Shown here: piece by piece, positions 3,318-44,610 of the stretch | Layout: every line of letters starts with the position of its first letter | How positions within the stretch are numbered: the first letter of the stretch is position 1 | Assembly (NCBI GenBank): GCA_947038515.1 | Contig: CAMQWJ010000012.1 | Span: forward strand, 1 to 50,192 | Source of the DNA: an uncultured Fusobacteriaceae bacterium | Lineage (GTDB): Bacteria > Fusobacteriota > Fusobacteriia > Fusobacteriales > Fusobacteriaceae | Length of the DNA: 50,192 nt | Direction: 5' to 3' | The notes under the pieces: generated by a model | What the model saw: only the letters and a program-made list of their open reading frames with translations | Told to the model about the DNA's origin: nothing | The model's database searches: none | Position numbers and translations under genes: made by a program

Positions 3318-3490
3318 GTTTTTATAAAGAAATTTATAGAATTAAAAGGGAAGTTAGGTGAGAATCCTACACAGTCCCGCTACTGTAAATATGGAGTAAA
3401 TTTTTAATGACCACTGATAGAGGAACTATTGGGAAGGGAAAAATTTATGTAGAGATATAAGTCAGGAGACCTGCCTATAAGAAAAAACAA
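3318..3490 (+). promoter_or_regulatory. Adenosylcobalamin riboswitch (cobalamin aptamer)
   Basis: The hallmark blocks of the cobalamin riboswitch occur in order: GGGAAGTTAGGTGAGAATCC and ACACAGTCCCGCTACTGT (3348-3386), the central CACTGATAGAGGAACTATTGGGAAGG block (about 3412-3437, given only for orientation), and the B12 box AAGTCAGGAGACCTGCC (3459-3475). A closing P1 helix can be drawn between about 3318-3327 and 3476-3489. It precedes cbiM and so links cobalt uptake and the whole corrin pathway to the cell's adenosylcobalamin level: binding of the end product should turn expression off. Confidence 0.95.
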
Positions 3491-4362: not shown

Positions 4363-4406
4363 AGGAGGAAATGGTATAAAACAATTATGTTTATATCATA
4401 AAAAAA
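4363..4406 (+). promoter_or_regulatory. Bridged ribosome-binding site of cbiN (SD - hairpin - A7 - AUG)
   Basis: AGGAGG (4363-4368) is 38 bases from the cbiN ATG (4407). The gap contains ATGGTATAAA (4371-4380) and its complement TTTATATCAT (4390-4399), a 10-bp stem with one G-U pair and a 9-base loop, then seven A residues. Removing the hairpin leaves a 9-base spacing, close to optimal. The bases after the SD also read ATG-GTA-TAA, a two-codon frame, so an alternative is reinitiation from a mini-ORF. Confidence 0.6.
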
Positions 4407-4703
4407 ATGAAAATACTAAAAACTAATATAATTTTGATAATCTTGGTTATAATAATAGGAGTATTGCCTTTGATTTTTTTAAGTGGAGCAGAGTTTTCTG
4501 GAGCAGATGGAATTGCTATGGATGCAATAGGAGAAATTGCACCAAATTATAAGCCGTGGTTTAATTCAGTAATTGAGTTACCAAGTGGAGAAGTAGAATC
4601 TTTATTGTTTGCTCTACAAGCAGCAATAGGAGCAGGAATAGTTGGTTTTATTTTAGGACAAATGATAGAGCGACATAAAAAAACAGAAAATAAAAATGTT
4701 TAA
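4407..4703 (+). CDS. cbiN: Cobalt ECF transporter auxiliary subunit CbiN
   Basis: CbiN, 98 residues, the small membrane partner that lets CbiM load cobalt. Two membrane segments (about residues 6-26 and 66-88) flank a periplasmic loop with FSGADG and the conserved PWF and E-LPSGE-x-ES-x-LFALQA segments, the full CbiN pattern. The ATG at 4407 is the only plausible start: an in-frame stop lies at 4377-4379. The ribosome-binding site is unusual (see the separate entry). The end overlaps the start of cbiQ by 8 bases. Confidence 0.95.
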   Translation: MKILKTNIILIILVIIIGVLPLIFLSGAEFSGADGIAMDAIGEIAPNYKPWFNSVIELPSGEVESLLFALQAAIGAGIVGFILGQMIERHKKTENKNV

Positions 4704-7502: not shown

Positions 7503-7546
7503 GGGAGGGGAGGTAAGTTTTAAGAAAATGAAATTTACCAAAAAAA
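7503..7546 (+). promoter_or_regulatory. Bridged ribosome-binding site of cbiL (SD - hairpin - A7 - AUG)
   Basis: GGGAGGGGAGG (7503-7513) is 33 bases from the cbiL ATG (7547). GGTAAGTTT (7512-7520) pairs with AAATTTACC (7531-7539) in a 9-bp stem with one G-U pair and 10-base loop, followed by exactly seven A residues and the ATG. The layout is the same as before cbiN. An ATG inside the loop (7528) opens an out-of-frame 19-codon ORF, the other possible reading. Confidence 0.6.
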
Positions 7547-8272
7547 ATGATGAAAAAAGAGGGAATAGAGAATTTGAATTCTAAATATGGAACTTTTTAT
7601 AGTGTTGGAGTAGGACCTGGAGATCCATCACTTATGACTATTAAATCTGTTGAAACTATAAAAAAAAGTGATATAATAGTGCTACCAAAGAGTGGAGCAA
7701 CAGAAAATATTGCTTTTAAAATAGCAAAAGAGTATTTGGGAGATAAAAAAATAATTGAGTGTGATATGCCCATGACAAGAGATAAAGAATTACTATATCA
7801 AAGTCATGAAAATGCAACAGAAACAATTGAAGAACTCTTAAAAAGTGGAAAAACAGTATCTTTTTTAACACTTGGAGATCCATCAATTTATAGCAGTACA
7901 ATGTATGTTCATAAAAGACTGACTGAAAGAGGATACAAAACAGTTCTTATACCGGGAATTCCTTCGTTTTGTGCTGTTGCAGCAAGTTTAAATACTTCTC
8001 TTTGTGAAGGTGGAGAAGTTTTACATATTATCCCTGCATCTTATGATGATATTGATGAATCACTTGCACTAAAAGGAAATAAAATATTAATGAAATCAGG
8101 AAAAAGTATTTATAGTGTAAAAGATAAAATATTGAGTTCAGGAAACAAAGAAGCAATGATGGTTGAATGTGCTTCTATGGAAAATGAAAAAGTATATAAA
8201 AAAATAGAATTGATAGAGGAAAATGCTAGTTATTTTTCAATTTTATTAGTGAAAGATGGGGAAAAAAAATAA
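7547..8272 (+). CDS. cbiL: Cobalt-factor II C20-methyltransferase CbiL
   Basis: CbiL, 241 residues, methylates C20 of cobalt-factor II, the first ring-methylation after cobalt insertion. It has the class III (tetrapyrrole) methyltransferase marks: N-terminal FYSVGVGPGDPSLMTIKSV, the long glycine-turn TLGDPSIYSSTMY (about 107-119) and PGIPSFCAVAASLN. MMKKEG at 7547 is the first in-frame start after the strong but distant Shine-Dalgarno; the second ATG (7550) is equivalent. Its place between cbiD and cbiF supports the CbiL rather than CbiF assignment. Confidence 0.93.
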   Translation: MMKKEGIENLNSKYGTFYSVGVGPGDPSLMTIKSVETIKKSDIIVLPKSGATENIAFKIAKEYLGDKKIIECDMPMTRDKELLYQSHENATETIEELLKSGKTVSFLTLGDPSIYSSTMYVHKRLTERGYKTVLIPGIPSFCAVAASLNTSLCEGGEVLHIIPASYDDIDESLALKGNKILMKSGKSIYSVKDKILSSGNKEAMMVECASMENEKVYKKIELIEENASYFSILLVKDGEKK

Positions 8273-30652: not shown

Positions 30653-30697
30653 AAGGAGGGTATGGAAAATAAGAATTATTAACCATACAAAACAAAA
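30653..30697 (+). promoter_or_regulatory. Bridged ribosome-binding site of adk (SD - hairpin - AUG)
   Basis: AAGGAGG (30653-30659) is 38 bases from the adk ATG (30698). GTATGG (30660-30665) pairs with CCATAC (30683-30688), and inside it AATAA (30668-30672) pairs with TTATT (30676-30680), with symmetric AA/AA internal loop and GAA triloop. The 9-base linker is AAAACAAAA. A six-codon ORF (ATG 30662 to TAA 30682) also starts right after the Shine-Dalgarno, as alternative. Confidence 0.6.
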
Positions 30698-31339
30698 ATG
30701 AATATAATGTTGTTTGGAGCACCAGGATCAGGAAAAGGAACACAAGCAAAACCAATAATGGAAAAGTATAATATACCTCAAATTTCAACTGGAGATATAT
30801 TGAGAAGTGCAATAGCAGAAAAAAGCCCTTTAGGATTAGAAGCTAAGAAAGTTATGGATTTAGGACAATTAGTTTCTGATGATATAATTATTGGGATAAT
30901 AAAAGAGAGATTAAAGCAAGATGATTGTAAAAAAGGTTTTATTTTAGATGGATTTCCAAGAACGATACCACAAGCTGAAGCTTTAGAAGTTATAATGAAA
31001 GAATTAGGAATTAAACTAGATAAAGTTATTTCTTTGAATGTTCCAGATAGTGCAATACTAGAAAGAATTACAGGAAGAAGAGTTTGTCCAAATGATGGAA
31101 CTTCTTATCATATAACTTTTAATCAACCTAAAGTAGAAGGGAAGTGTGATATATGTGGAACTGAATTAATATTAAGAAAAGATGATAATGCAGAAACAGT
31201 AGTAAGTAGACTAGAAGCATATCATAAGCAAACAGCACCATTATTTGATTTCTATAAAGAAAAAAATATACTTGTAGAAATAGATGGAATGGCAGGATTA
31301 GAAGAAGTTAAAAATCAAATCGTTAGAGTATTAGAGTAG
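30698..31339 (+). CDS. adk: Adenylate kinase
   Basis: Adk, 213 residues, interconverts ATP + AMP and 2 ADP in the cytoplasm. P-loop GAPGSGKGTQA (7-17), AMP-binding ISTGDILR, GFPRTIPQAEAL and the LID domain with zinc ligands CPNDG and CDICG (four Cys type, about 129-152) are present: the long, zinc-containing form. MNIMLFGAPG is the standard N-terminus, so the ATG at 30698 is firm despite lacking a nearby Shine-Dalgarno. Followed after 8 bases by map. Confidence 0.97.
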   Translation: MNIMLFGAPGSGKGTQAKPIMEKYNIPQISTGDILRSAIAEKSPLGLEAKKVMDLGQLVSDDIIIGIIKERLKQDDCKKGFILDGFPRTIPQAEALEVIMKELGIKLDKVISLNVPDSAILERITGRRVCPNDGTSYHITFNQPKVEGKCDICGTELILRKDDNAETVVSRLEAYHKQTAPLFDFYKEKNILVEIDGMAGLEEVKNQIVRVLE

Positions 31340-44077: not shown

Positions 44078-44554
44078 TTAATTTCTATAAAGGACAGTTA
44101 AACCTTTTAAAAAAGTACGGATATATTTATCCCCACATTCACGATAATTTTTATGAGTTGGTTTTCTGAAAAGAGCAGAAAGCTCAGAATCTGAAATTTC
44201 AACTTCTCCTAATTTAAAAACTTTTATCATATCTTCACTACGAAAATTTAGAGCTATTCTAAGTTTTTTTAAAATAATGTTATTATTATTACTATTTTTT
44301 TTAGGATGGAAAACTTCTTCTTCAGAACTTTTTTTATCTAATGGTCCTCTCTTAAAAATTATGAAACCATCAAGGAATTTTTTTAGAGATTCATTAGAAA
44401 CAGAAAAATATTCCTCTTCATGCTCTTTCTTTAAAATATCTTTAATTTTTTCAACAGCAATAACCTCATTTCCAAGTTCAAAAATTTGACACATTTTTAT
44501 GTCGCTAATGTCAAGAGCGTACCGTAATCTTCTTAAAATATCATTGTTATTCAT
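44078..44554 (-). CDS. DUF1456 (YehS-like) protein
   Basis: A 158-residue protein made of two DUF1456 repeats: NNDILRRLRYALDISDIKMCQIFELG with FLDGFIIFKRGP (residues 1-75) and NNIILKKLRIALNFRSEDMIKVFKLG with YIRTFLKGLTVLYR (about 88-158), separated by an Asn/Lys-rich linker. E. coli YehS is the best-known relative; its function is unknown. The ATG at 44554 gives the conserved start and is the first in-frame candidate after a stop. The ribosome-binding site is unusual: see the separate entry. Confidence 0.85.
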   Translation of the reverse strand: MNNNDILRRLRYALDISDIKMCQIFELGNEVIAVEKIKDILKKEHEEEYFSVSNESLKKFLDGFIIFKRGPLDKKSSEEEVFHPKKNSNNNNIILKKLRIALNFRSEDMIKVFKLGEVEISDSELSALFRKPTHKNYRECGDKYIRTFLKGLTVLYRN

Positions 44555-44610
44555 AATTTTGTTAGCAACAGTATTATAGTTATATGGATACTGTTACTTA
44601 AATTCCTCCT
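44555..44610 (-). promoter_or_regulatory. Bridged ribosome-binding site of DUF1456 gene (SD - hairpin - AUG)
   Basis: On the minus strand AGGAGG (complement of 44605-44610) is 50 bases from the ATG. AGTAACAGTAT (44598-44588) pairs with ATACTGTTGCT (44574-44564) in an 11-bp stem with one U-G pair and a 13-base loop. AATTT next to the SD can further pair with AAATT next to the ATG. An in-frame TAA lies within the gap, so the protein cannot start nearer to the SD. Confidence 0.6.

Follow-up and report, generated by a model that had tools for sequence, protein, structure and literature searches.

The window, by which we mean the whole 50,192-nt stretch of contig CAMQWJ010000012.1 analysed here, derives from an uncultured Fusobacteriaceae bacterium and contains four genes, cbiN, cbiL, adk and a DUF1456 gene, whose Shine-Dalgarno sequences are separated from their start codons by a spacer that can pair with itself as a hairpin (Table 1). 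On re-reading of the sequence, the cbiN leader is as the initial annotation described it, with a 10-bp stem containing one G-U pair that shortens an apparent gap of 38 nt to an effective gap of 9 nt; the leaders of cbiL, adk and the DUF1456 gene likewise match its description. The cbiN gap contains an in-frame TAA at 4377–4379. The start of adk is secure, since the N-terminus of its product (MNIMLFGAPG) agrees with those of its relatives. The loosest of the four leaders is that of the DUF1456 gene, where the effective gap is 6 + 9 = 15 nt, and the weakest stem is that of adk, with a score of 15. Predicted folding of the cbiN leader as a whole is modest (z of -1.5), while the spacer alone gives a z of -4.7. 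What these leaders have in common is the stem and where it is placed; the loop is not shared.

Table 1. Coordinates of the Shine-Dalgarno sequences, bridging hairpins and genes at the four leaders, numbered from the first base of the window.
Feature	Position	Strand	Details
cbiN Shine-Dalgarno AGGAGG	4363..4368	+	from sequence; then AA before the stem
cbiN bridging hairpin	4371..4399	+	5' arm ATGGTATAAA (4371-4380), 9-nt loop (4381-4389), 3' arm TTTATATCAT (4390-4399); one G-U pair
cbiN A7 linker, hairpin to start	4400..4406	+	from sequence
cbiN gene	4407..4703	+	ATG at 4407; PF02553, E 7e-29
cbiL Shine-Dalgarno GGGAGG	7503..7508	+	first half of the purine run 7503-7513
cbiL bridging hairpin	7512..7539	+	GGTAAGTTTTA (7512-7522) paired with TGAAATTTACC (7529-7539)
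cbiL gene	7547..8272	+	TP_methylase, PF00590; start at 7547 or 7550 (ATGATG)
adk Shine-Dalgarno AGGAGG	30654..30659	+	from sequence
adk bridging hairpin	30660..30688	+	GTATGG (30660-30665) with CCATAC (30683-30688); inner AATAA/TTATT
adk gene	30698..31339	+	PF00406
DUF1456 gene Shine-Dalgarno GGAGG	44605..44609	-	from sequence
DUF1456 gene bridging hairpin	44564..44598	-	arms 44588-44598 and 44564-44574; 11 bp, one G-U pair
DUF1456 gene	44078..44554	-	PF07308, E 1.2e-51

A search of the four leaders against Rfam returned no match above the gathering score. Elsewhere in the window, Rfam identifies a Cobalamin riboswitch (RF00174, 3313–3479, 102 bits), expected upstream of the cobalamin operon that begins cbiM-cbiN, and an S4-Fusobacteriales ribosomal protein leader (RF03133, 32689–32745) upstream of ribosomal protein genes. 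Positions 899–948 hold a near-perfect inverted repeat of ~18 bp (ACACAACGTAAGCACTTA ... TAAGTGCTTACGTTGTGCGT) with a loop of ~14 nt and no obvious gene, and positions 1–633 hold a reading frame of tandem ~23-residue units (YKNGKxEGxxxxYYxTGKL-like), similar to a MORN variant and cut by the contig end.

The source genome (G000, 1.78 Mb) belongs to a genus of which three species were sampled, within a family that comprises 14 genera, Cetobacterium among them. A search of named genome contigs with CbiD gave no match. We scanned 850 kb of it (~48%, window included), together with 480 kb of a sister species (G001) and 200 kb of the third species (G002). The scan was blind to stem sequence: it required GGAGG, the 5' foot of a stem 0–6 nt after it, and the 3' foot 5–11 nt upstream of a start codon that opens a frame of 60 codons or more, and the expectation by chance was taken from dinucleotide-shuffled spacers. 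The 850 kb of G000 yielded 19 cases with a score of at least 16 against 2.36 expected, 16 against 0.82 at a score of at least 18, and 11 against 0.26 at a score of at least 20. For the 480 kb of the sister species, 4 cases reached a score of at least 20 against 0.06 expected; the result for the 200 kb of G002 was marginal, with no clear excess over the shuffles. A control independent of shuffling gave stems with a score of at least 18 in 15 of 105 GGAGG-ATG pairs that open a gene, compared to 2 of 452 pairs in which the opened frame is shorter than 40 codons. Stems are also rarer after other 5-mers than after GGAGG (P 8e-7), several of these 5-mers overlapping variants of the Shine-Dalgarno sequence. 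Conversely, an ATG stands at the right distance in 12 of the 17 strong G000 hairpins that have GGAGG at their foot. Extrapolation gives a total of about 35 such genes in G000, or ~2% of its genes. The proposal that folded spacers form a repeated class of ribosome-binding site is thus supported by two of the checks that the initial annotation had itself proposed, the excess over shuffled leaders and the occurrence of similar leaders in relatives (see below).

The geometry of these leaders is regular. Linear gaps in G000 span 27–50 nt, and with the stem folded the effective gaps are 9.6 ± 2.1 nt, mostly 7–11 nt, compared to a spacing of 6.3 ± 2.0 nt at ordinary GGAGG sites of the same genome. 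The listed cases have no second, nearer Shine-Dalgarno sequence. Start sites throughout are predictions; in 14 of 18 G000 cases the gap contains an in-frame stop, so that in those cases it is not coding and does not extend the N-terminus. In context, the predicted pairing probability of the stem is 0.75–1.00 in 19 of 20 leaders, and the predicted accessibility of the Shine-Dalgarno sequence is moderate or low in several (0.23–0.68). Three other identities for the palindromes were considered and rejected: a DNA operator, given half-site spacings from 3 to 19 nt and the location of cbiN and cbiL within an operon; an internal promoter with the foot as its -10 box, since inspection by eye showed the first T to be missing from several feet and no -35 box at the places examined; and an intrinsic terminator, as no T-run follows the hairpin.

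The foot of the stem has a preferred sequence. AUG or GUG stands exactly 2 nt past GGAGG in 11 of the 22 sequence-blind hairpins, compared to 3 of 129 non-hairpin pairs (P 1e-8) and 2.75% of shuffles. The usual foot is AUGAUA or AUGGUA, and that of cbiN reads AUG GUA UAA. Both the frequency of this codon and the cbiN foot would fit a scheme that the initial annotation had offered as an alternative, in which ribosomes translate a tiny ORF opened by the AUG or GUG of the 5' arm and, on terminating, pass to the real start. However, the frames of the tiny ORFs relative to the main AUG are evenly distributed (14, 12 and 14 of 40), and such a random relationship to the gene makes reinitiation unlikely. 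Moreover, 23 of the 40 reach the gene start without meeting a stop, the stops that exist are not conserved between close orthologues, and a distance of 2 nt is shorter than any ordinary-start spacing counted (minimum 3, mode 4, over a counted range of 3–16 nt only). We therefore give reinitiation hardly any credence.

Wider searches included one with a covariance model, R1, built from 16 trimmed leaders of this genus; its E-values are rough and, owing to that training, its matches are biased to the AUGRUA foot, and the case for an excess rests on the sequence-blind scans, not on R1. Across 61 genomes of the family, R1 has matches in many genera, which we read as the same device at unrelated genes, among them a ferredoxin-like gene in three species and, in another genus, coaBC and an ornithine-cyclodeaminase-like gene (this name, like the rdgB-like and holA-like below, is read from the N-terminus). 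Matches below ~27 bits frequently lie away from gene starts. The exact consensus SD-[TATGRTA..TAYCATA]-ATG occurs 12 times in the 61 genomes and 0 times in the backward control. Eight relatives of other genera, of which 66–100 kb each were scanned, provided few cases. Among 84,980 named genomes, 13 matches were obtained, 10 of which were judged to be a Shine-Dalgarno sequence, hairpin and ATG at a long ORF, nine of those in Clostridia or Tenericutes. The class looks rare in the Clostridia-class sample, where only 2 of 291 genomes have a strong match (E at most 0.003) under filters stricter than those of the family search. Cases are scattered through the Fusobacteriaceae and some Clostridia.

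Comparison of orthologues suggests that the hairpins are gained and lost. Most orthologues have ordinary leaders, as seen for adk where readable, acyl-CoA dehydrogenase, aroC, thiD and a yedF-like gene; orthologues of cbiN, cbiL and adk are mostly without a hairpin, which leaves the covariation comparison proposed in the initial annotation without the stems that it needs, and stems differ from gene to gene instead. The coaBC leader provides a clean case of presence and absence between species whose proteins are ~90% identical: two genomes (G055 and G056) carry AAAAAGGAGG[GTATGATAAA..TTTATCATAC]AAATATATCTATG, and three (G053, G054 and G058) carry AAAAAAGGAGATATATCAATG or a very similar sequence, with the same flanks. 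Between orthologue pairs of coaBC and of the ornithine-cyclodeaminase-like gene, the loop changes but the stem persists, in one case with G-U in place of A-U, in a series too short for real covariation. Base-pair counts over selected leaders are circular, because these were chosen for pairing.

Clean presence and absence at coaBC is also what would be expected if a dispersed mobile palindrome with a GGAG foot had inserted at Shine-Dalgarno sites, and the rdgB-like and holA-like leaders of one Clostridia genome (G064) share ~33 nearly identical bases. REP/RAYT elements are short palindromes with a GGAG/GTAG-like foot, and the hairpins described here resemble them in both respects. Unlike REP/RAYT elements, however, the palindrome is not expanded in the genome: the G000 count without the ribosome-binding-site context is 8, compared to 7 in the backward control. 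Stem sequences within G000 are diverse, and GGAGG-adjacent stems are confined mainly to gene starts. We regard a mobile palindrome as very improbable. The hairpin and linker shared by the two G064 leaders (L256 and L276) suggest that one start site recently received a copy from the other. Separately, a sampled G000 stretch (L113, about 3420–3460) holds a long A/T palindrome, AAATGGTATGATATATT..AATATATCATACCATTT, that does not adjoin GGAGG.

The initial annotation had suggested that the folded spacers may be RNA switches, that is, that binding of a protein, or melting by temperature or ions, sets the distance from Shine-Dalgarno sequence to AUG for a set of genes. The non-random foot AGGAGG-NN-(A/G)UGRUA, found at unrelated genes in the Fusobacteriaceae and some Clostridia and needless for mere bridging, could be taken as a sign of such a regulator. 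The suggestion is otherwise unsupported. The genes concerned (metG, rsmH, aroC, thiD, fabH-like, adk and cbiN) have unrelated housekeeping functions and point to no common ligand or protein; loops differ greatly, as do stem lengths; and the hairpins are mostly absent from orthologues. Predicted pairing of the stems persists from 25 to 55 °C, at 0.78–0.99 at the upper end, and this predicted stability argues against a simple thermosensor. RNA thermometers and riboswitch expression platforms hide the ribosome-binding site in RNA structure near the start codon, unlike the arrangement here, in which the Shine-Dalgarno sequence and the AUG are left outside the stem. A regulatory switch is, in our judgement, improbable.

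We favor, with a probability of about 0.78, the interpretation that these leaders are constitutive split (“accommodated”) ribosome-binding sites that have been repeatedly gained and lost. Their anatomy and geometry, the excess over chance, the restriction to gene starts and the presence or absence between relatives are seen in the sequences and support it. AGGAGG would pair with the 30S subunit, leaving a linear spacer of 25–50 nt that is too long; the spacer would fold into a short A/U-rich hairpin, mostly beginning 0–3 nt past the Shine-Dalgarno sequence and ending 7–10 nt before the AUG. The remaining single-stranded path of ~7–11 nt would allow the AUG to reach the P site. Folding of the hairpin in vivo, initiation by ribosomes across the folded stem and constitutive activity of the site are our inferences; some hairpins may tune expression. 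Gains and losses would each affect a single gene, mostly within this genus, and could follow if an inserted spacer is tolerated when it folds and not when it remains unfolded.

The split ribosome-binding site of phage T4 gene 25, described by Malys and Nivinskas, has a structure for which both probing and a supporting role in expression have been reported (PMC3014915), and in T4 gene 38 an RNA structure cuts a gap of 22 nt to 5 nt (PMC3014915). The comparison with phage T4 drawn in the initial annotation is apt, as gene 25, used as a positive control, is recovered by our scan with matching geometry: GAGG-c-CTCAAAG-agtt-CTTTGAG-ttactata-ATG, 27 nt in total and 9 nt effective, both values within the range found here. 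The hairpin lies directly past the Shine-Dalgarno sequence, with ~8 nt between hairpin and AUG. Gene 25 is one phage gene, and its structure has been tested; the leaders described here differ in that they belong to many cellular genes and have A/U-rich stems and a preferred AUGRUA foot. Gene 38 likewise has a structure-shortened gap, as described in the same source, but is a phage gene, unlike the cellular genes here. In the open-licence literature searched, hairpin-bridged initiation is demonstrated mainly for these two T4 genes, and no genome-wide report of such a class was found there, although one may exist elsewhere.

The AUGRUA foot is surplus to mere bridging and is likelier to be new than any other part of these findings. 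It is conceivable, but rather unlikely, that the ribosome, or a conserved trans-acting factor shared by the Fusobacteriaceae and Clostridia, recognizes AGGAGG-NN-(A/G)UGRUA paired with UAYCAU as a sequence-specific element. If so, this element would define a novel type of structured ribosome-binding site for cellular genomes, inserted and lost as a whole. Programs for start-site prediction that assume a spacer of 4–12 nt may miss or mis-score genes with bridged leaders. The natural pairs with and without a hairpin are suited to tests of how the 30S subunit accommodates structure between the Shine-Dalgarno sequence and the start codon. With perhaps 35 such genes in one bacterial genome, hairpin bridging would be a general option of cellular translation.
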